DNA of 64,000 bases from Pseudomonadota bacterium (GTDB lineage Bacteria > Pseudomonadota > Gammaproteobacteria > Burkholderiales > Rhodocyclaceae): NCBI GenBank assembly GCA_018241725.1, contig JAFEDI010000068.1, positions 62,001 to 126,000 on the forward strand. The letters are read 5' to 3'. Numbering within the stretch: the first letter of the stretch is position 1; every line of letters begins with the position of its first letter. Positions 4,382-63,701 of this stretch are shown here, in pieces. Both the position numbers and the translations under genes were made by a program. The notes under the pieces were generated by a model that searched no databases, was not told the DNA's origin, and saw nothing but the letters and a program-made list of their open reading frames with translations.

Positions 4382-4860
4382 TTGCGGACTTTCTTGTCGG
4401 CGGCGGCCAGTTCAGCGGCCCGGTGGATGCCCTTGCGGATGCGCAGATAGGTGCCGCAGCGGCACAGGTTGCCGACCATCGCGCCGTCGATGTCCTCGTC
4501 GCTGGGGCGGGGGTTTTCCTTCAGCAGCACCGCGGCGGTCATGATCTGGCCAGCCTGGCAGTAGCCGCACTGGGGCACGTCGAGCTCTTTCCAGGCCCGC
4601 TGCAGCGGATGTTCGCCCTGCGGATCGAGCCCTTCGATGGTGGTCACCTGCTTGCGGCCGACGGTGGACACCGGCGTCATGCAGGCGCGGGCCGGCACGC
4701 CGTTGAGGTGGATCGTGCACGCGCCGCACTGGCCGATGCCGCAGCCGTACTTGGTGCCGAGCAGCGACAGGCTGTCGCGCAGGACCCACAGCAGCGGCGT
4801 TTCCGGCGCAGCTTCGACGCTGCGGCTATGACCGTTGATGGACAGGGTGTATTTGCTCAT
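4378..4860 (-). CDS. iorA: 2Fe-2S subunit of the molybdenum hydroxylase, IorA-type
   Basis: 160 residues. The plant-type 2Fe-2S cluster ligands are Cys40, 45, 48 and 60 (CGIGQCGAC and downstream Cys). The C-terminal cluster ligands are Cys98, 101, 133 and 135 (CGYC, CRC). It carries electrons from the molybdenum centre of IorB to an outside acceptor. The start was set at [10 protein letters not shown] because an upstream extension of the frame would run into the cytochrome gene without conserved sequence. There is no signal peptide of its own; in this family it is usually co-exported with the Tat-tagged large subunit. Its stop overlaps the iorB start. Confidence 0.9.
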
Positions 4861-4894
4861 GGAATGGGTCGGTCCGGATGGTTGAAGGCGGGCC

Positions 4895-5527
4895 CTACAA
4901 GCCTGAAAGATAGTCGGCCAGTGCTTCGATGTCCTTGTCGCCGAGCGACTTCGCAATCTGGTTCATGACGCCGTCCGGGCTGTTGCGGCGGATGTCGCTA
5001 CGCCAGTCCTGCAACTGCCCGCGCAGGTAGAAGCGGTGCTGGCCGCCGATGGCCGGATAGGCCAGGCCGCCGGCCACCCGCCCTTTGCCGTCGGCCCCGT
5101 GGCAGGCGCTGCAGGCCGGAATGCCGCGGGCGCCGTCGCCCTGCTCGAAGAGTTTGCGCCCGAGCGAGCTGGCGGACTGGGCGCTCGCCACCGTGCCCTT
5201 CATCACCGGCTGGGCGGCGAAATGGGCTGACACGTTGGCAAGCTCGGCGTCGCCCAGTTCCTGCGTCAGCGCCTGCATGATCACGTTGCGGCGCCGGCCG
5301 TCGCGGAAATCGCGCAGCTGCTTGTACAGATAGGCCGCCTGCTGGCCGCCCAGGCGCGGATATTCGGCCACCGTGCTGTTGCCGTCCGGGTTGTGGCACT
5401 CCTTGCAGACGTTCTCGTCGGACCAGGCCTTGCCGGCCAGCGGATCGCCGACGCGGTCCGCCGCGCATGCGCTACTCCCAATGCACAGCGCAGCGAGCAG
5501 CCCCCCGAGTGAAGACAGAACCCGCAT
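4895..5527 (-). CDS. Diheme cytochrome c, c4 type
   Basis: 210 residues with a signal peptide (to about residue 23, ACAAD) and two class I haem domains. CKECH is at 41-45 and CSACH at 139-143, each followed by a GG-Q-YLY/FYL segment and a methionine region typical of cytochrome c4. The start ATG at 5527 is preferred because GGGTGA lies about 8 bases before it; a GTG at 5536 overlapping the previous stop is the alternative. It is a likely periplasmic electron acceptor for IorAB or the DUF1549 protein in the same gene string. A paralogue lies at the end of the second module. Confidence 0.87.
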
Positions 5528-35944: not shown

Positions 35945-36634
35945 TCAGAAAGGACTCCAGGGGCTGTTGAAGAAGCGGCTCAACCAGCCCGGCTCGTTGG
36001 CGTCGGCCAGCGTGCCGCGCCCGGAATAGGCGATCCGTGCATTGGCGATGCGCAGGGACGAGACCCGGTTCTCGGTGTCGATGTCGGACGCGCGCACGTA
36101 GCCGGCCAGGCGCAGCAACTCCTCGCCCTGGTTCAGGTACAGGCTCTTCTCGCCACTGACGCGCAACAGGCCGTTGGGCAGCACTTCCTGCACGATGACG
36201 GTGATCGCCCCCTGCAGGGTGTTCTGCTGACGGCTCGACGCGTTGCCAGCGAAATTGCGGTTGGCATCGAAGCCGAGGCCGGTGCTCTTCACCGCCTTGC
36301 CGAACAACGTGACCGGCGCCAGCGTCGCCCCGCTCTTCTTGTCGATGGCCGTATCCGCCGACTTGCTGGCCTGGGTGGTCTCTTCCAGCTGCACGGTCAG
36401 CACATCACCAGGACGGAAGGCACGGCTGTCGGCGGTGCTGGCCCACGGCTGTTCGCCGGAGAAGACGCCGCCGGCCCTTGCCTTGCGCGGCGCCGGCACG
36501 GGGATGTTCGGACGGCTGCCGTCGTCGAGGGGCGGGATCTGGGCCGGCTGGATGGCCGCGCACGCGGCCAGCAGGCCTGCCGCGCAGGCGACGAGCCCGT
36601 TCCGGAGACGTGGCAGGGCGTGGGCGGCGGACAT
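35945..36634 (-). CDS. flgH: Flagellar L-ring lipoprotein FlgH
   Basis: 229 residues. The lipobox LLAAC at about residues 22-26 marks a lipoprotein for the outer membrane. Conserved blocks include FRPGDVLTVQLEETTQASKSADT, TVIVQEVLPNGLLRVSGEKSLYLNQGEELLRLAGYVRASDID and ARIAYSGRGTLADANEPGWLSRFFNSPWSPF. It forms the outer-membrane bushing of the basal body. It starts 1 base after the flgG stop. Confidence 0.95.
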   Translation of the reverse strand: MSAAHALPRLRNGLVACAAGLLAACAAIQPAQIPPLDDGSRPNIPVPAPRKARAGGVFSGEQPWASTADSRAFRPGDVLTVQLEETTQASKSADTAIDKKSGATLAPVTLFGKAVKSTGLGFDANRNFAGNASSRQQNTLQGAITVIVQEVLPNGLLRVSGEKSLYLNQGEELLRLAGYVRASDIDTENRVSSLRIANARIAYSGRGTLADANEPGWLSRFFNSPWSPF

Positions 36635-50074: not shown

Positions 50075-50524
50075 TCATGCCCGCCCCCGCCACCAACTTT
50101 GGGTGGCCAGTTCGTCCTGGCGCTTTTGCTCGCCCTGCAGCTGCTCCCGCTGCAGGGCCTGCAGCTTGCCGTCCAGCACCTGGCTCACGGCCTCGTGGCG
50201 CTGCACCGCACGGGTCAGTGCGAGCTGGGCCAGTTGCAGGTCGGCGTCATGGCGCTCGACTTCATTTCGCTGGCTGTCGGCGAGGTTCAGCACCGCCTGC
50301 TTGTAGTCGCCGCAGTTCAGGGACAACGCGGCGACGTGGACCGCCGGTCGTTCGCCGCTGACGGTGGCGCTGGCGCACAGCTGCTCCAGGCGCGCCAGCG
50401 TGGCGCGATGGCGCTCCAGCTGGGCACGGCGGCCGGCCAGCTCACCGACCAGGTTGTCCTTTTCGCGGCGGCGCTGGTCGACGACGGCGGCCAGGCCGCG
50501 CAGGGTCTTGGGATGGGTGCTCAT
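50075..50524 (-). CDS. fliJ: Flagellar export protein FliJ
   Basis: 149 residues, a long coiled coil (MSTHPKTLRGLAAVVDQRRREKDNLVGELAGRRAQLERHRATLARLEQL; QLAQLALTRAVQRHEAVSQVLDGKLQALQREQLQGEQKRQDELATQSWW). It is the general export chaperone and stalk of the FliI ATPase. The start overlaps the fliI stop (ATGA). It is the last gene of the fliE operon. Confidence 0.88.
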   Translation of the reverse strand: MSTHPKTLRGLAAVVDQRRREKDNLVGELAGRRAQLERHRATLARLEQLCASATVSGERPAVHVAALSLNCGDYKQAVLNLADSQRNEVERHDADLQLAQLALTRAVQRHEAVSQVLDGKLQALQREQLQGEQKRQDELATQSWWRGRA

Positions 50525-51831
50525 GCCAGCAGGCTCTCCAGTCGGGCCAGGGTGTCGGCAAAGGGCGCGGCCTCCCGCGTACCCTGGTGCAGGAAGGCCT
50601 CGATCCGCGGGTACAAAGCCACCGCCCGATCGGTGGCCGGATCGGCGCCGGCCACGTAGGCACCCAGCGGCAACAGGTCGCGCACGCGGACGTAGCGGGA
50701 ATACAAGGCCTTGATCTCCCGCGCCGCCGCCTGCTGGGCAGGGGTCGTCACCTGCGCCATGCAACGGCTGATGGACTGGGCGATGTCGATGGCCGGGTAG
50801 TGGCCGCGGTCGGCCAGCTCGCGGGACAGCACGATGTGGCCGTCGAGGATGGCCCGGGCGGTGTCCACCACCGGGTCCTGCTGGTCGTCGCCTTCGGCCA
50901 GCACGGTGTAGATGGCGCTCATGCTGCCCGCCTCGTGCTCGCCGTTGCCAGCGCTCTCCACCAGCTGCGGCAGCAGGCCGAACACCGACGGCGGGTAGCC
51001 GCGGGTGGCCGGCGGTTCGCCGAGGGCCAGCGCCACTTCGCGGCGGGCCATCGCGTAACGGGTGAGGGAATCCACCAACAGCAACACGTTCTGGCCCTGG
51101 TCCCGGTAATGGGCGGCGATGGCGTGGCACAGCTCGGTGGCGCGCAGGCGCATCAGCGGCGACTCGTCGGCCGGCGCGATGACGACCACCGCGCGGGCCA
51201 GCCCGGCCGGGCCGAGGGACATGTCGATGAACTCGCGCACCTCGCGGCCACGTTCGCCGATCAGGCCGACCACCACCACGTCGGCGACGGTCTGGCGGGT
51301 GATCAGGCCGAGCAGCACGCTCTTGCCGACGCCGCTGCCGGCCATCAGGCCTACGCGCTGGCCGCGCCCGAGGGTCAGCAGGCCGTTGAGGGCGCGGACA
51401 CCGACGTCGAGCACGCCTTCCACCGGCTTCCGGCGCAGCGGATGCACGTGCGGCGGCCGTGCCGCCAGCGGATGCTCGCCGCCGAGGCGGCCGCGGCCGT
51501 CCACCGGCTCGCCCAGGCCATTGACGATGCGCCCCAGCCAGGACGGCCCGATCATCAGCCCGCCCTGGTCGGCGGCCGGCAGCACGCGGGCGCCGGTGGC
51601 CAGGCCCTCCGGGCGCTTGAAGGGCATCAGGTAGGAAATCTCGTTGCGGAAGCCGACCACCTGGGCGGCGATCCACTCGCCGCTGGCGGTCTCGATACGG
51701 CAGCACTGGCCGGTCTGGAAGGCGCAGCCGGTGCTCTCCAGCAGCAGGCCGGAGGCGCCCACCAGACGGCCGGTGTGGGTCGCCACCGGGATGTCGGCGA
51801 ATTCGAGCTGGCGCAGCGCGGCGGCGATCAC
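50521..51831 (-). CDS. fliI: Flagellar export ATPase FliI
   Basis: 436 residues from a GTG start overlapping the fliH stop. Walker A is GLMAGSGVGKSVLLGLI and Walker B is VLLLVDSLTRYAMARREVALALGEPPATRGYPPSVF. The F1-like signature GSMSAIYTVLAEGDDQQDPVVDTARAILDGHIVLSRELADRGHYPAIDI is complete. It powers substrate entry into the export gate. Confidence 0.96.
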   Translation of the reverse strand: MIAAALRQLEFADIPVATHTGRLVGASGLLLESTGCAFQTGQCCRIETASGEWIAAQVVGFRNEISYLMPFKRPEGLATGARVLPAADQGGLMIGPSWLGRIVNGLGEPVDGRGRLGGEHPLAARPPHVHPLRRKPVEGVLDVGVRALNGLLTLGRGQRVGLMAGSGVGKSVLLGLITRQTVADVVVVGLIGERGREVREFIDMSLGPAGLARAVVVIAPADESPLMRLRATELCHAIAAHYRDQGQNVLLLVDSLTRYAMARREVALALGEPPATRGYPPSVFGLLPQLVESAGNGEHEAGSMSAIYTVLAEGDDQQDPVVDTARAILDGHIVLSRELADRGHYPAIDIAQSISRCMAQVTTPAQQAAAREIKALYSRYVRVRDLLPLGAYVAGADPATDRAVALYPRIEAFLHQGTREAAPFADTLARLESLLA

Positions 51832-52502
51832 GGCGCCACCTCCTCACCGTCCTCGGCGAGATGGGTTTCGAGTTGTTCGATACAGGCAGCCAGGCGCTGA
51901 CGGCAGCCGGCGTCGGCCTCGCGCCCGTCGGCACGAACGCGGCACTCGCCGGGCTCCAGCCGCGGATCGGCGATCAGCGTCCAGCGCGACGCGCGATCCG
52001 GCGCCAGTTCGAGGATGCGCTGGCGCTCCTCGGGATTCAGGAAAACCTCGACCCCTTCGCGGGCCGGCGGCATCGTCGCCAGGGTTTCATCCACCAGCGC
52101 GAGCAGTTGCACCGGCTGCAGGACCAGTTCGCTACGGATGACCTGACGGGCCACCTTGGCGACCAGATCCACCACCTCCCGGCGCAGCGCCCCCTGGTAG
52201 TCGGCCTGCATCTGGCGCAGGCTGGCGATCAGCGCATCGATCGGCGCGGCGAGTGAATCGAACTGGGCCAGCACCTCCTGGCGAGCCTCGTCACGGCCCG
52301 TGCGCAGCCCTTCACGGCGGCCCTCCGCCAGTCCGTCCCCACGTCCCTGGGCCAGGCCCAGTTCATGCCCTTCCCGGTAGCCCCGCTCCATGCCCTGGTG
52401 GAAGCCATCGGCCAGGGAAGCCTGGGCCTCCGCCGCACTGGCGACCGACACGCCAGCCACGAGGGACAAGGGGGGGAAACGGTAGGGCCGAAAGTTCTTC
52501 AT
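51828..52502 (-). CDS. fliH: Export ATPase regulator FliH
   Basis: 224 residues from MKNFRPYRFPPLSL. A central glycine-rich helix with GxxxG-like repeats (GFHQGMERGYREGHELGLAQGRGDGLAEGRREGLRTGRDEA) is diagnostic of FliH. The C-terminal stator-like domain VVDLVAKVARQVIRSEL and EVFLNPEERQRIL follows. It links FliI to the C-ring via FliN. It overlaps fliG by 4 bases. Confidence 0.92.
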   Translation of the reverse strand: MKNFRPYRFPPLSLVAGVSVASAAEAQASLADGFHQGMERGYREGHELGLAQGRGDGLAEGRREGLRTGRDEARQEVLAQFDSLAAPIDALIASLRQMQADYQGALRREVVDLVAKVARQVIRSELVLQPVQLLALVDETLATMPPAREGVEVFLNPEERQRILELAPDRASRWTLIADPRLEPGECRVRADGREADAGCRQRLAACIEQLETHLAEDGEEVAP

Positions 52503-53530
52503 TCGACCGTCGCCTCGGCGAACAGCTGGATCTCGATCTCGCCCGCATCGACGAGTTCCTTGACCTGCCCCATGATCTCGGCGCGCACTTGTTCGACGCG
52601 GCTGCGCGGTACCGGGCCGCTGCGCCGCATCAGATCCTCGAAGCCCTGTGCCTGGCGGCGTGGCATGGCGCGCAGGATGGCGTCGCGCACCGCCGGCTCG
52701 GCGCCCTTGAGGGCAATCGCCCACTGGTCGAGGGCCACTTCCTCGATGAGGCGGGTGATGACCTCGTCGTTCTGACGGGACAGGACGTAGAAGTCGTACA
52801 TGCTGACCTCGATCTCCGACACCATCTCCGGATCGTGGGCACGCAGCATCTCGACCATCTGCTGGCGGTTGCCGGGCAAGCGGTTGAGAATCTCGGCGGC
52901 GTGGCGCACACCTTCCACACTGGCGCTCTGCAGGCCCAGGCTGTCGAGGCAGCGGAGGACCATCTCCTCCAGCTCGATCAGCAGTTCGCGGTCGATCTCG
53001 GTGAGGCGCGCCACGTTGAGCAGCACCTGATCACGACTGTCGGTGGGCAAAGCATCGACGATCTCGCTGGCCAGCGCGGCCGGCAGGAAGGCCAGGAACA
53101 CCGCCTGCATGCGTACGTGTTCGTTGATCAGCTGCTCGGCCAGCCACTTCGGCGAGGCCCACTGCAGGCGCGCCATCTTCGGGCGGATCTCGTCGCCGTA
53201 GATCTTGTTGAGCACGCTGCCGGCGATGTCGGCGCCAAGAGCAAGGTCGAGGGAGCGCCGCAGGTAGGTGCGCGACGCGCCATGCACGCCGCTCTGCTCC
53301 CGGTAGTCGTCGAAGAAGCGCTGCAGCGAGCTCTTCACCGCCTCCACCTTGATGCCGCTCATCCGCGACATCACCTGGGTGACCTCCAGCAGCTCCTCGC
53401 GGGACAGGCAGCGCAGCACCGCGGCGGCGGGCTCCTCACCCATCGACAGCAGCACGATGGCAGCCTGCTCCACCGGCGTCGGCGTGGCACCGGGGACGAT
53501 CATGTCGGGCAGATTATTCGCTTCGGCCAT
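52499..53530 (-). CDS. fliG: Rotor protein FliG
   Basis: 343 residues with the three FliG parts: VEQAAIVLLSMGEEPAAAVLRCLSREELLEVTQVMSRM; the middle domain ending MEASPKWLAEQLINEHVRMQAVFLAFLPAALASEIVDALP-like ASPKWLAEQLINEHVRMQ; and the C-terminal torque helix region VLSRQNDEVITRLIEEVALDQWAIALKGAEPAVRDAILRAMPRRQAQGFEDLMRRSGPVPRSRVEQVR. Charged torque residues are present. It couples the stator to rotation and overlaps the end of fliF by 17 bases. Confidence 0.95.
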   Translation of the reverse strand: MAEANNLPDMIVPGATPTPVEQAAIVLLSMGEEPAAAVLRCLSREELLEVTQVMSRMSGIKVEAVKSSLQRFFDDYREQSGVHGASRTYLRRSLDLALGADIAGSVLNKIYGDEIRPKMARLQWASPKWLAEQLINEHVRMQAVFLAFLPAALASEIVDALPTDSRDQVLLNVARLTEIDRELLIELEEMVLRCLDSLGLQSASVEGVRHAAEILNRLPGNRQQMVEMLRAHDPEMVSEIEVSMYDFYVLSRQNDEVITRLIEEVALDQWAIALKGAEPAVRDAILRAMPRRQAQGFEDLMRRSGPVPRSRVEQVRAEIMGQVKELVDAGEIEIQLFAEATVE

Positions 53531-55169
53531 TTTTCTGCATCCATTGGCGGACCACTTCGGCGACGCGCTCCGGCTCCTTCGCCGACAGCACCTTCAGGTG
53601 TTCGACCATCACGTCCACCGGCGAACCCGGGGCCGGCAGGTCGTAGTTTTCGAGCAGGCCGGCGACCGGCATGCGCTGGGTATCGGGGGCGGCCAGGGCG
53701 GCATGGGCGGCCGGCGCGGCGAGTTCCGGACTGGTGGGCTCCTGTGCTTCCGCCAGCTCTTCGACGGTCTCGGCTGCGGGCAACGCCAGACGCTGCTGGA
53801 CCAGCTTCATCAGCGGACGGACGATGAACAGGAAGGCCAGCAGCAGGCTGATCGCGTAGGCCAGCCAGCTCGCCATCTCGATGATGTTGTCGCGTTGCTG
53901 CCACCAGGCCACGCTGTCATCCACCGGCTTGCGGAAGCCGCTGGCGGTGACGACCAGGCTGTCGCCACGCGCCGCGTCGATGCCGAGGCCGCTGCGCAGC
54001 ACCTTGTCCACATTGGCCAGCGCTTCCGGCGTCCAGGTCTTGCCGTCGGGGGCCGCAGCGTTGTTCATCACCACCGCCACGGAGAGCTTCTTCAGGCGGC
54101 CGCGGCTGCGCTTCACCTGGGTCACGCTTCGGTCGTAGGCGTACTGGCGGGTGGTGGCGTTCTTCTTGGTGGTCGCCGCCTCCGGCTCCTCGTCGGCCTT
54201 CACCGCCACCGGGCGGTTGCTGAGGGAGCCCGGCACGCCGACCGCCAGCGGATCGCGGCCGTTCTCGGTACGCATCGCCTCATTGGTGATCTTCGGCGCC
54301 TCGCCGTAGCGTTCGGTGGTTTCCTGGATGCGGTCGTTGTCCACCTCGGCGGTGACGCTGACCTTGAAGTTGCCCGTGCCAAGCATCGGCAGCAGGAGAT
54401 CCTCGGCATTGCGCTGGGTCTCGTCGCGGAAACGGTGGGACGCGTCGTTGAGCTGGGCACCCTCGAAGCCCTCGCTGAGATCGACGCGGGCGGACAGCAG
54501 GTTGCCGGCCTGATCGACCACGCTGACCCGCTGCGGATCAAGGCTGGCGACGCTGTTGGCGACCATGTTGATGATCGCCGCTATCTGCTCGGGGCTGAGG
54601 GAACGGCCGGCCTTGAGGGCCAGCACCACCGACGCGGTGCTCTTCTCGCCGTCATTGACGACGAAGGACGAAGAGCGCGCGATGGACAGGTGCACCCGCG
54701 CCGAATCCACCGCGTCGAGGGTCATGATGCTCTGTACCAGCTCCCCTTCGAGGCCGCGGCGGAAGCGCACGTCCTGCACGAACTGGCTGACCCCCAGCGG
54801 ATCGTTGCGGTCCATCAGCTCCAGCCCCTGCGGCAGCTTGGCAACTACGCCCTTGGCGGCCAGCAGCATGCGCACTTCGCCGAGGCGCTTGGCCGGCACC
54901 AGCACCTGACCGGAATCCGGATGGAGCCGGTAAGGGATGCCCTGGGCGTCGAGCAAGGCGATCATCTCGGCCGACGCCACCTTCTCGCGGCTGCCGAACA
55001 CCGGCTTGTAGCCCGCCTGGTCGTTCCACGCGAACATCAGCACCAGCGCGGTGATCGCCAGCGCCAGCAGCACGATGGGCAGCAGGCCCTTGACGAAACC
55101 CGGCGGCAGCTTCGGCAGGCCGCCGGGGGCGCGCAGGCGGGCCAGAGCGGGAGAGAGGGAGAGATTCAC
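53514..55169 (-). CDS. fliF: MS-ring protein FliF
   Basis: 551 residues from a GTG start. Membrane helices lie near residues 25-45 (LLPIVLLALAITALVLMFAW) and 435-455 (MASWLAYAISLLLAFLFIVRPLM). The YscJ-like ring domain (VFGSREKVASAEMIALLDAQGIPYRLHPDSGQVLVPAKRLGEVRMLLAAKGV; DVRFRRGLEGELVQSIMTLDAVDSARVHLSIARSSSF) and the C-terminal FliG-binding tail (LKVLSAKEPERVAEVVRQWMQKN) are intact. It forms the base on which the C-ring and export gate assemble. Confidence 0.95.
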   Translation of the reverse strand: MNLSLSPALARLRAPGGLPKLPPGFVKGLLPIVLLALAITALVLMFAWNDQAGYKPVFGSREKVASAEMIALLDAQGIPYRLHPDSGQVLVPAKRLGEVRMLLAAKGVVAKLPQGLELMDRNDPLGVSQFVQDVRFRRGLEGELVQSIMTLDAVDSARVHLSIARSSSFVVNDGEKSTASVVLALKAGRSLSPEQIAAIINMVANSVASLDPQRVSVVDQAGNLLSARVDLSEGFEGAQLNDASHRFRDETQRNAEDLLLPMLGTGNFKVSVTAEVDNDRIQETTERYGEAPKITNEAMRTENGRDPLAVGVPGSLSNRPVAVKADEEPEAATTKKNATTRQYAYDRSVTQVKRSRGRLKKLSVAVVMNNAAAPDGKTWTPEALANVDKVLRSGLGIDAARGDSLVVTASGFRKPVDDSVAWWQQRDNIIEMASWLAYAISLLLAFLFIVRPLMKLVQQRLALPAAETVEELAEAQEPTSPELAAPAAHAALAAPDTQRMPVAGLLENYDLPAPGSPVDVMVEHLKVLSAKEPERVAEVVRQWMQKNGRSE

Positions 55170-55190: not shown

Positions 55191-55526
55191 TTAGAGCGGC
55201 AGCTTGATGAGGTCGTCCATCGCGCCGACCATCTTGTTGCGGACCTGCATCAGCATCGAGAAGGACAGGCTGGCTTCCTGACTGGACAACATCGCCCCCA
55301 CCAGATCGTCGCTACGGCCGCTGTCCACGTCGGCCATGCGCTCGCCGGCGACTCGGTCCTTCTCGTTGACGCCCAGCACGGCCTGCTTGAGGTGCTCGCC
55401 GAAGCCGTCGGCTTCGGAGCTGGCCGCATCCAGCAGATTGGCTGCCGGCACGACCAGGTCGGCGGCCGGCAGGCTGCCCTGCAGCTTCATCAGGTCGGCG
55501 CCGATCGACGCCAGCATTTCAGTCAC
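55191..55526 (-). CDS. fliE: MS-ring/rod adaptor FliE
   Basis: 111 residues from GTG 55526; GTG 55529 and ATG 55517 (MLASIGADLM) are alternatives. AGGAG ends 9 bases before GTG 55526 and 18 before the ATG, which favours a GTG. The C-terminal half is typical: FGEHLKQAVLGVNEKDRVAGERMADVDSGRSDDLVGAMLSSQEASLSFSMLMQVRNKMVGAMDDLIKL. It links the MS ring to the rod and opens the export gate. It is the first gene after the long c-di-GMP riboswitch leader, so its expression should depend on that RNA. Confidence 0.9.
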   Translation of the reverse strand: MTEMLASIGADLMKLQGSLPAADLVVPAANLLDAASSEADGFGEHLKQAVLGVNEKDRVAGERMADVDSGRSDDLVGAMLSSQEASLSFSMLMQVRNKMVGAMDDLIKLPL

Positions 55527-56021
55527 CACCACACTCTCCTTCGGAAACGGGATGCGCCGGAATGGCGCCCCGCACGCACCAGCCGGTGGGGCGGGATTCA
55601 ATCGCCAATTGGCGTTGCGTTTTTTCGGGAAAAAGAAACCCCTCGCACGCTCAATGCGGCAATTGAAAAAACGAACGAATAAATCGACGAAAACGAATTG
55701 AACTGGCAATAAGGCCGGAATTAAAACCGGACGCAAATAGACCTCGCGCCAAATTGAATCGGGCGAAGGGGATCAGAAGAAAACCCTGATCCGGATCCAG
55801 GCGTACGGAGAGCAGGCGAACGACACCATGCCAAGACGGCCCTGGTGCGTGTTCAGACGAGAATGTGATGGTTCATGCGCTTTCCCTCATTGATGTGCTC
55901 GGGACGCACACATAGGAAAGACGAGGCGCAGCCGCCAGAAAGGCGACAACACAGACCCGGCGCGGCGTACAGGCAAAGCCCACACGGACAACAACCGGCG
56001 GAACCGAGTCAGCGGTTCCTG
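55527..56021 (-). other. Long fliE leader between riboswitch aptamer and start codon
   Basis: About 495 transcribed bases with no credible gene. Visible structures on the minus strand are a GGAACCG/CGGTTCC hairpin just after the aptamer (about 56000-56019) and a GGATCAG/CTGATCC hairpin (55770-55792). A nine-base GTCGCCTTT block (55940-55948) also occurs, like the -10 box of the FliA sites but without a -35. An eight-codon mini-reading frame (MNHHILV, 55853-55876) is preceded by AGGGA. No hairpin is followed by a convincing T-run, so the expression platform is not identified. Confidence 0.55.
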
Positions 56022-56103
56022 TCTGGCAACCCCGCTATCGTAGCCCGTAAGAGCTTTAGACCGGAGGCTTTGCGACCCCGTCTTTCGAACGGGTGTGCCC
56101 AAA
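56022..56103 (-). ncRNA. Cyclic di-GMP-I (GEMM-I) riboswitch aptamer upstream of fliE
   Basis: On the minus strand the aptamer has the P1 pair TTTGG/CCAGA, the binding segment GGGCACACCC (56091-56100) and a hairpin closed by a C-GAAA-G tetraloop (tetraloop at 56083-56086). The hallmark CGCAAAGCCTCCGG (56061-56074) and its receptor CTAAAG (56054-56059) follow, then a second stem and GATAGCGGGGTTGCC (56025-56039). This is the known c-di-GMP-I fold; the position matching the G that pairs with the ligand is G, which favours c-di-GMP over cyclic AMP-GMP. It should sense c-di-GMP and control fliEFGHIJ. Whether high ligand turns the operon on or off cannot be read. Confidence 0.93.
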
Positions 56104-56139
56104 TTTAAGTTTTCGCGGTTTTGGTCGCGAGTTGGAGTG

Positions 56140-56168
56140 ATTATGCCCAGAAGCTTTCCGCCAGGCAA
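56140..56168 (-). promoter_or_regulatory. Sigma-70 type promoter of the fliE operon
   Basis: On the minus strand TTGCCT-N17-CATAAT, 4/6 and 5/6 matches to the consensus with optimal spacing. The predicted start is near 56133, about 30 bases before the riboswitch aptamer and 600 before fliE. No FliA or sigma-54 site was found for this unit. Confidence 0.65.
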
Positions 56169-56179
56169 TCATTTTTTTC

Positions 56180-56200
56180 AATTCAGCCCCAGGCTGAATT
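56180..56200. repeat. Perfect 9-bp palindrome between fliE and fliM promoters
   Basis: aattcagcc and ggctgaatt are complementary with a 3-base centre. It lies just upstream of the fliE -35 box and in the AT-rich region leading to fliM, a position suited to a regulator controlling both divergent units. It is not followed by a T-run on either strand, so a terminator is unlikely. Confidence 0.5.
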
Positions 56201-56369
56201 AATCGATAAACGGCCCATCAATTCCTGTTGCGTTAAATCGAATTAATCCGCAAACTAAAAATAATTAGATCCAAGTCTTTCCGGATTAAGAATTCAGGAA
56301 ACGCCATTCGCGGGCGAAACGCGACCGGCATTCTGCTCGAATTGCCGGACAATCATTGGTAATACAGAC

Positions 56370-57224
56370 ATGCAGAAATCCGCAGCGCAGCGCGGTGGAA
56401 TGACGCTCGACCCTCTCTCGCTGGGACGCCCGCTCCACTTGCTGGAGCGCTTCACCGCGCTCGCGCGGGACGATCTCGACGAGGCCTTGCGCGGCAGCCT
56501 GAACCGTCGCTATCGCGCGCAGTTCGAAGTCGCAGACGTCCGCCTCGTGCCCGTCGACCGCCTCCCTGAGCACCGCCGCTGGAACGGCTACACGCACGAA
56601 CGGGGCCGTATCGATTTCGCGCTGGACCGCCAACTCCTGCTGTGCGCCCTCGACTACCGCTACGGTGCCCACCCGGTAAGCAAGGCCGGTCCGCGGGACG
56701 AGGCGCCGGTGACGGCAACGGAAGAACGCCTCGCCGCGTTGCTCGGGCGGCGCTTCACCGGAGTACTGGTGGATCGCCTGGAAGGACGTGCTCCGTCCCA
56801 CGACGGCAGCGCCCACACCGGACGCCTGCTCGGTGACGCGACGACGGCACTGCGCCGCCAGGGCGCCTGGGCCCTGCGCGTCGGCATGCGCGAACGGAGC
56901 CACGGCATCGACGGCGGCATGTACTTCCTGCTCGAGGAGGCCTGGCAGCGCCATCTTCTGCAGCAACTGGCACCCACGCGCGATCGACCTGGCGAACCGG
57001 CCGCGGCCCAGCCTTTCCCGCACCGCCTGCGGCTCGCGCTGACGGCCCGCCTGCTGGAGAAGGACATCCCGCTGGGGCGCCTGCTCGACCTGCGGGTTGG
57101 CGACGTGATCCCGGTGCGCCTGGGGCCGTCCGACATCCTGGTCGACGATTCCCGGCTGTTCACGGCCCAGGTCGTGGAGCACAAGGGCAAGCTTTGTTTA
57201 ACCGCTTTTGAAGATGTGGAGTGA
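56370..57224 (+). CDS. fliM: Divergent rotor switch protein FliM, lacking the CheY-binding end
   Basis: 284 residues, shorter than the usual 320-330. Only about 25 residues precede the middle domain, and the N-terminal EIDALL-type CheY-P binding motif is absent. The middle domain is recognisable (LHLLERFTALARDDLDEALRGSLNRRY; FALDRQLLLCALDYRYG; TATEERLAALLGRRFTGVLVD), but the GGxG switch motif reads YGAHP. The C-terminal FliN-like domain (RLALTARLLEKDIPLGRLLDLRVGDVIPVRLGPSDILVD) is good. No ribosome site precedes ATG 56370; ATG 56400 follows GGTGGA closely and is an alternative. It resembles lateral-system FliM. It leads the fliM-flhA operon. Confidence 0.83.
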   Translation: MQKSAAQRGGMTLDPLSLGRPLHLLERFTALARDDLDEALRGSLNRRYRAQFEVADVRLVPVDRLPEHRRWNGYTHERGRIDFALDRQLLLCALDYRYGAHPVSKAGPRDEAPVTATEERLAALLGRRFTGVLVDRLEGRAPSHDGSAHTGRLLGDATTALRRQGAWALRVGMRERSHGIDGGMYFLLEEAWQRHLLQQLAPTRDRPGEPAAAQPFPHRLRLALTARLLEKDIPLGRLLDLRVGDVIPVRLGPSDILVDDSRLFTAQVVEHKGKLCLTAFEDVE

Positions 57225-62879: not shown

Positions 62880-63701
62880 ATGGCCGCCGCGACCGCATCC
62901 CACCTCAACCCGCTGGCGCGGGACTTTCTCGCCCGCCTGCCGCAGGAGCCCGTCCCCGGCAAGCAGCTGCACCGCACGGAGAACGGTGCGGTGGTGGGCG
63001 ACTGGTTCGGCTTCGAGCTGTCGAGCGCCTTCCAGTCCATCGTCGATGCGACCAGCGGCGCCGTCGTAGGCCGCGAGGCCTTCCTGCGCAGCCACGGCCC
63101 GGACGATGACGGGCTGTCGCCATGGACGCTGTTCTCCGCCGCCGCCGAAGATGCCCGCCTGATCGCCCTCGACCGCCTGGCGCGCACCCTGCACCTGCTC
63201 AACGCGCTGGCCGCCGGCAACGATGTGCCGCTCTTCCTCAACGTACATGGCCGCCTGCTGGCCGCCGTCGGCGACGACCACGGCCGCGCCTTCCGCCGGG
63301 TGGTGGACGCCCTTGGCGTGGCGCCGGACAGCATCGTCATCGAAACGCCGCCGGAAGCCAGCGCCCAGCCCGACCTGCTGGCCTTCGTGCTGCGCAACTA
63401 CCGCAACAACGGCTTCCGCGTGGCGGTCAATGTGGAGTCCGCGGCCCAGTGGCAGGCCATCGCCAACACCGTGTGGCCGCAGTTCGTGAAGGTGGACCGG
63501 CGCAAGCTCGGCAGCGGCGTCGAAGCCCACGAGCGCCTCAAGTGGCTGGCCGCCCTGCGCGAAGACGCCCGCATCATCGTCACGCATGTGGAGGAGCCGG
63601 CACCGGAACTGGCCGCCGACCACGTGCTGCTGCAGGGCTACGCCTATGGGCTCCCGGTCGGTGCCAGCGCCTTCGCGCAGGAACTGCGCTCCGGGGATTA
63701 A
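62880..63701 (+). CDS. Degenerate EAL-domain protein downstream of flhA
   Basis: 273 residues, one domain, with no signal or membrane segment. The EAL fold is recognisable: FQSIVDATSGAVVGREAFLR (EAL site reads EAF), VPLFLNVHGRLL (metal Asn kept), SIVIETPPEA, the region FRVAVNVESAAQW where active enzymes have DD, FVKVDRRKL and LLQGYAYGLPVGASAF. The lost acidic pair predicts no phosphodiesterase activity, so it is more likely a c-di-GMP sensor or a ligand-free regulator. It starts 143 bases after flhA in the same direction and may be read from the same promoter. In Escherichia, a degenerate EAL protein (YdiV) controls flagellar genes; no close similarity to it is claimed. Confidence 0.82.
   Translation: MAAATASHLNPLARDFLARLPQEPVPGKQLHRTENGAVVGDWFGFELSSAFQSIVDATSGAVVGREAFLRSHGPDDDGLSPWTLFSAAAEDARLIALDRLARTLHLLNALAAGNDVPLFLNVHGRLLAAVGDDHGRAFRRVVDALGVAPDSIVIETPPEASAQPDLLAFVLRNYRNNGFRVAVNVESAAQWQAIANTVWPQFVKVDRRKLGSGVEAHERLKWLAALREDARIIVTHVEEPAPELAADHVLLQGYAYGLPVGASAFAQELRSGD

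Follow-up and report, generated by a model that had tools for sequence, protein, structure and literature searches.

A putative c-di-GMP-I riboswitch and a conserved uORF start ahead of the early operon of a second flagellar system in Zoogloea

In the 64,000 nt stretch of DNA analyzed here, called the window below, a candidate c-di-GMP-I riboswitch stands upstream of fliE. The host genus is Zoogloea, judged from relatives. The locus raises the question of whether c-di-GMP could set the expression of an early flagellar operon at the RNA level, and through which step of gene expression the RNA would act. The features on which the answer depends are the following, in window coordinates.

50521..51831, minus strand: fliI, export ATPase (PF00006, PF18269)
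51828..52508, minus strand: fliH (PF02108)
52499..53530, minus strand: fliG (FliG domains)
53514..55169, minus strand: fliF (PF01514, PF08345)
55191..55532, minus strand: fliE, GTG start approximate (PF02049)
55533..55852, minus strand: poorly conserved remainder of the leader (50.0, 42.6 and then 18.8% invariant columns in successive stretches from the uORF towards fliE, four Zoogloea)
55853..55876, minus strand: uORF of 7 codons (MNHHILV) plus stop; SD and ATG 145 nt after the aptamer, same place in four Zoogloea
55877..56021, minus strand: conserved platform from aptamer to uORF (invariant at 105 of its 145 columns among the four Zoogloea)
55880..55920, minus strand: predicted hairpin inside the platform containing the SD-like sequence of the uORF (minimum-energy fold)
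56022..56109, minus strand: c-di-GMP-I riboswitch aptamer (RF01051, 75.4 bits; helices covary over 35 relatives)
56140..56168, minus strand: sigma-70-like promoter TTGCCT-17-CATAAT (9/12), inferred start at about 56133
56370..57224, plus strand: fliM, first gene of the divergent operon (PF01052)

The aptamer, its promoter and the flagellar cluster

The Rfam covariance model RF01051 (c-di-GMP-I, GEMM-I) matches window positions 56109-56022 on the minus strand over its full length (model positions 1-87 of 87) with an E-value of 5.5e-13, and the score of 75.4 bits is well above the gathering cut-off of 35 bits. No other match above the gathering score was found in the Rfam model scan of the window, and between 55000 and 56700 the aptamer is the single match up to an E-value of 1, overlapping matches of the same clan aside. 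The helices are also supported by covariation. In an alignment of 35 aptamers (34 distinct), whose rows were themselves picked up by the Rfam model, 98.0% of the helix cells are paired and 9 of 18 pairs are altered on both sides, with 108 doubly changed cells in the P2 and P3 helices versus 34.8 in shuffles. The residues G12, A40 and C84 (first-row numbering) are invariant across the 35 rows, and we take them to be the equivalents of G20, A47 and C92 in Vc2 numbering; the column taken as G20 is a G in all 35 aptamers. In the available part of the structural literature these are the ligand-contact residues of Vc2 (PMC4744006). Judged by its sequence, we propose that the RNA is a standard c-di-GMP-I aptamer, which would bind c-di-GMP.

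Downstream of the aptamer, the start of fliE at about 55532 (PF02049, E 3.3e-17) lies at a distance of 489 nt, and profile searches place fliE, fliF, fliG, fliH and fliI on the same strand. The genes fliM, fliN, fliP, flhB and flhA run in the direction opposite to fliE, and fliD, fliS, fliK, fliL, a sigma factor, motA, motB, flgM and flagellin are found elsewhere in the window. A different contig of the same genome encodes a second FliF with 35% identity, so that the aptamer-bearing cluster is one of two flagellar systems. Directly after flhA an EAL-domain gene is present (62880-63701, plus strand; PF00563, E 2.3e-16), some catalytic motifs of which seem degenerate against the consensus as we presume it to be. 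An EAL gene occurs on the contig of the cluster in the four Zoogloea that have the cluster, and not near the cluster in G175, G150, G180 and G025.

A sigma-70-like site, TTGCCT-17-CATAAT, is located at 56168-56140 on the minus strand and agrees with the consensus at 9 of 12 positions. It is the only 9/12 site on either strand of 55400-56450, where 0.5 are expected from shuffles, and 30 nt separate the end of its −10 box from the aptamer. Promoters were compared over 15 of the 17 known leaders, as were terminators and the GUCUG element discussed below; L075 and L087 were dropped as near copies. A TAnnnT box is found at most 18 nt from the aptamer start in 12 of these 15 representative loci (1.3 expected), the exceptions being three Zoogloea with the box 30-32 nt off. 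Full sigma-70 sites in the 80 nt before the aptamer are present in 2 of 15 loci at 9/12 (0.4 expected) and in 4 of 15 at 8/12 (1.7 expected), so that good support outside Zoogloea is limited to the −10 box. Three GAATTAATC-like 16-mers surround the divergent promoters (55677-55692, 56196-56211 and 56240-56255) and are possible regulator sites, and in several Sphaerotilaceae a GTGCACAAA-TCAC-like motif was seen by eye upstream of the aptamer promoter.

These results bear out part of the original prediction, which had named the c-di-GMP-I class and several GEMM-I sequence motifs, all found in the aptamer, a good sigma-70 promoter about 30 nt before it, and an early flagellar operon starting some 500 nt after it. 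The location it gave for the aptamer was right as well, whereas the extent of 56022-56103 omitted the first six nucleotides at the 5′ end.

Distribution among relatives

The host genome contains three c-di-GMP-I aptamers in total, and the genus has 31 over 23 whole genomes, with at least one in 17 of the 23. A FliF at least 96% identical to that of the window is encoded in 4 of the 23 genus genomes, and in all four the aptamer is at the same place. At the family level, FliF relatives at E ≤ 1e-80 occur in 14 of 297 genomes, the four Zoogloea and ten more; an aptamer precedes fliE in four of the ten (L065, L067, L070, L072) and not in the remaining six, in five of which fliM was not found beside fliE. 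A survey of named genomes, covering the best 80 of 209 FliF relatives, gave 16 loci out of 80 in which the aptamer precedes fliE, on the same strand as that gene and within the fliE/fliM gap. Of the 18 matches listed over 1.06 Mb of FliF loci, 17 reach E ≤ 2.4e-14, and every one of these is in a fliE/fliM gap; the match in L110 (14.3 bits, E 0.59) was excluded from the counts. With the window's own included, the aptamer before fliE is known from 17 genomes. The fliM-fliE gap, for which fliE starts in relatives were extrapolated from BLAST, measures 751-1190 nt in the 16 aptamer loci; of the 59 aptamer-less loci where a gap was found, 52 have 289-622 nt.

The E-values of the relatives, the uniform position in the fliE/fliM gap and the presence of such aptamers throughout the genus indicate that the match is not due to chance. 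As far as can be judged from comparing genomes, the riboswitch and its position are real and conserved. According to the tree labels the carriers belong to the Zoogloeaceae, Rhodocyclaceae, Sphaerotilaceae and Comamonadaceae, with three rows lacking a family name. The aptamer label changes three times on the tree versus 14.8 times in shuffles, so a single origin followed by losses is possible.

Other aptamers of the genus precede genes of different kinds. In the host genome one (L002, G000:C76:10759-10847) is located 78 nt before a predicted lipoprotein without Pfam family and another (L003, G000:C31:161733-161820) precedes a dynamin/GTPase-like gene. Long leaders recur in L013, L017 and L027, where the aptamer is about 1,055-1,079 nt before a prepilin-like gene; in L027, the only one of the three tested, the N-methylation motif is present. 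A genus relative has two divergent aptamers 239 nt apart (L021/L030; G005:C41:35925-36004, minus, and 36244-36328, plus), as far as seen not at a flagellar locus.

The uORF start and possible routes of control

The conservation of the leader suggests what the aptamer may act on. Among the four Zoogloea, 88.9% of the columns are invariant in the aptamer, 72.4% in the 145 nt platform and 79.2% in the short uORF that follows, after which the values fall as listed above; the spacer on the fliM side has 60.2%. Of 17 leaders, 14 have an SD-like sequence with an ATG at 125-170 nt downstream of the aptamer versus 0.71 expected, an interval chosen post hoc after inspection of leaders that include six close relatives (four Zoogloea and two Azoarcus). 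The other three leaders (L078, L116, L099) have an ATG at the uORF position without the listed SD strings. The uORF starts were chosen by hand by the analyst from candidate starts, and with these the uORFs range from 5 to 124 codons. No common peptide was detected among the uORFs of the 17 leaders, and a conserved leader peptide was rejected.

A start codon near the aptamer is not restricted to the flagellar loci. Of five other genus aptamers inspected, four are followed by an SD and ATG that open a long frame 73-136 nt downstream (L004 at 73, L002 at 78, L028 at 108 and L022 at 136 nt), and in the fifth, L026, an SD was not seen. A start codon at such a distance is therefore a usual target in the genus, the difference at fliE being that it opens a uORF.

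A rearrangement in one Rhodocyclaceae MAG, L089, independently marks out the cassette. The unit starts 11 nt upstream of the aptamer and takes in the first ten codons of the uORF; the MAG has two copies of it in inverted orientation (4582-4869 and 5200-5482), one facing fliE and the other fliM. The inverted arms of 131, 60 and 72 nt are 93, 97 and 100% identical, and the uORF on the fliE side overlaps with fliE by 8 nt past its stop.

Within the platform the pentamer GUCUG is found in 14 of 15 leaders (shuffled mean 4.92, maximum 10 in 200 shuffles). In the window it is at about 55956-55952 and complements the CAGAC flank of the aptamer; this flank is altered in L076, L150, L087, L098 and L082, with G-U pairing still possible in the first four. 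A pairing of aptamer helix P2 with the platform through the complement of GAAAGA was found in 6 of 15 leaders (0.65 expected) and was set aside because the SD arm has the same purine run. Across clades the alignment was too poor for a single consensus fold to be used.

Predicted folding was examined over all 17 leaders, as were the SD and ATG counts, the uORF counts and the composition of putative Rho sites. The SD of the uORF is slightly masked on average (unpaired 0.24 versus 0.32 in shuffles), and in the window's own leader the effect is reversed, with 0.35 versus 0.19 and no masking. The direction of folding indicates OFF in seven leaders, ON in two and no difference in eight, and the aptamer itself does not stay intact in the free fold.

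In view of the above, the following mechanism can be considered. Transcription would begin shortly upstream of the aptamer, and the riboswitch would head the mRNA of the early operon, fliEFGHI onward, of the secondary flagellar system. Bound c-di-GMP would alter the folding of the next 145 nt or so, and thereby the access of ribosomes to the uORF start. Translation of the uORF would then set the amount, survival or translation of fliE mRNA, through polarity or decay, or through coupling at loci whose uORF extends to fliE, and high c-di-GMP would most likely switch the operon OFF. Comparison establishes the aptamer, its place, its conservation and the conserved platform and uORF start, and we consider riboswitch control of the fliE operon likely. 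That the uORF is the direct target of the riboswitch is the main addition of this analysis and is put forward as a hypothesis, for which comparison argues well and folding weakly. A point against the relay is the distance involved: in 15 of 17 loci, 197-399 nt separate the end of the uORF from fliE, the exceptions being the overlap in L089 and a distance of 83 nt in L115. We infer the binding of the ligand, the direction of switching and the relay from uORF to fliE, and give the mechanism as a whole, a c-di-GMP-I aptamer that controls uORF initiation and through it the early flagellar genes, with OFF as the most likely response to high c-di-GMP, about an even chance. A wider reading is somewhat more tentative: Zoogloea, Azoarcus, Roseateles and relatives may share a riboswitch family whose output is translation of a tiny uORF, carried as a portable cassette of promoter, aptamer, platform and start codon that sets expression of a second flagellum's early operon, and of both divergent flagellar operons in one genome.

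Best placed among the alternatives, and still unlikely, is a separate short transcript that is made from the promoter and covers aptamer, platform and uORF, with fliE expressed mainly from a downstream promoter and little or no effect of the riboswitch. In line with this, conservation in the leader is lowest and AT content higher over the 320 nt that separate uORF and fliE. However, no sigma-70 site at 9/12 was found between uORF and fliE in any of 15 loci (1.9 expected), and at 8/12 there are 7 of 15, no excess over the 7.05 expected. A sigma-54 promoter before fliE also finds no support, since the best scores in aptamer loci are near the shuffled means. There is no enriched terminator that could end such an RNA, and the aptamer is kept upstream of fliE in 16 loci among the best 80 of 209 relatives.

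Next comes an OFF switch like Cd1 of Clostridioides difficile, in which binding of c-di-GMP would allow an intrinsic terminator to form in the leader ahead of fliE, the uORF start being incidental; we regard this as improbable. It would fit the class, the kind of operon and the leader length, all shared with C. difficile flgB (PMC5386303, in part). Some leaders have terminator-like hairpins, but by one simple detector with a pattern scan these number 5 of 15 in the platform, 4 of 15 after the uORF and 4 of 14 in the rest of the leader, versus 3.1, 2.4 and 2.8 in shuffles, and over all 17 leaders they have no common location. A Cd1-type intrinsic terminator after the aptamer was therefore rejected, and the end of conservation at the uORF also argues against it. 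Rho was considered separately, and a composition table inspected by eye gave no common rut-like pattern in the 17 leaders.

The opposite polarity is doubtful to a slightly greater degree. Here the same cassette would be an ON switch, with c-di-GMP exposing the uORF or fliE and raising expression of the second flagellum. Two of the 17 folds agree, but seven indicate OFF, and c-di-GMP usually opposes motility. Precedents exist for both directions, since V. cholerae Vc1 and Vc2 respond oppositely and C. difficile Cd1 is an OFF switch (PMC6366702, in part). Very improbable is 3′,3′-cGAMP as the ligand, as in Geobacter GEMM-I variants: the RNA family is the same and the G20 position is described as a selectivity factor and not a hard filter (PMC9262584, in part), but the invariant G at the G20 equivalent favors c-di-GMP over cGAMP, G20A being the change used for the study of cGAMP binding in the available text of PMC6274999.

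Comparison with known systems

Early papers on GEMM RNAs reportedly named flagellar genes among the targets. The statement of the original prediction that it knew of no description in a lateral-type proteobacterial system agrees with a search of the open-access literature by titles and abstract openings, which returned no proteobacterial flagellar c-di-GMP riboswitch, with most subscription papers outside its scope; for lateral flagella in betaproteobacteria, too, it gave no title that bears on the question. If the uORF mechanism holds, proteobacteria would also use c-di-GMP to govern the assembly of flagella at the RNA level. The point of control would be the first structural operon, in addition to transcription factors and motor brakes. 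Where two flagellar systems are present, the cell could shut one of them off. Because the uORF start is conserved, a c-di-GMP riboswitch working via a leader ORF becomes directly testable, and loci with the aptamer, without it and with a doubled cassette are at hand as natural variants.

The closest parallel is Cd1 (Cdi-1-3) of C. difficile flgB, where the same aptamer class heads an early flagellar operon (PMC6366702, PMC5386303, PMC6200980, each in part). Both have a sigma-70-type promoter and a leader of about 500 nt, and the predicted similarity in length holds, with 489 nt from aptamer to fliE against a 5′ UTR of 496-498 nt (PMC5386303). In C. difficile c-di-GMP causes termination at about nt 160 (same source), whereas the Zoogloea leader has no enriched terminator and a conserved uORF start. 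Also unlike Cd1, which has an invertible DNA switch, no inverted repeat of at least 16 nt was found in 55480-56420, and an invertible element in the leader was rejected. The parallel drawn by the original prediction thus stands for the control logic and not for the platform, where there is no terminator excess and conservation ends at the uORF start; within the described parts of that system, the flgB switch is a functional precedent with a different platform.

Vc1 and Vc2 of V. cholerae are likewise proteobacterial c-di-GMP-I riboswitches, with equivalents of G20, A47 and C92 present here (PMC4744006, PMC6366702, in part). They do not act by termination (PMC6366702), which counts in favor of the uORF mechanism, and how Vc1 works is unclear to its authors (PMC4744006, PMC6366702). 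Their targets are gbpA and tfoY (VC1722) and not a structural flagellar operon, and, unlike in the Zoogloea leader, a uORF is not mentioned in the available portions of the two papers. Bc1 of Bacillus thuringiensis is likewise of the c-di-GMP-I class, has a long expression platform and acts at more than one level, but has two intrinsic terminators where none is enriched in the fliE leaders (PMC11218506, in part). The B12 riboswitch of M. tuberculosis ppe2 has another ligand and aptamer, and its relay, termination-reinitiation, fits only L089 here, where uORF and fliE overlap; it resembles the proposed mechanism in that, according to the accessible text of PMC11260477, downstream expression depends on riboswitch-controlled translation of a uORF.
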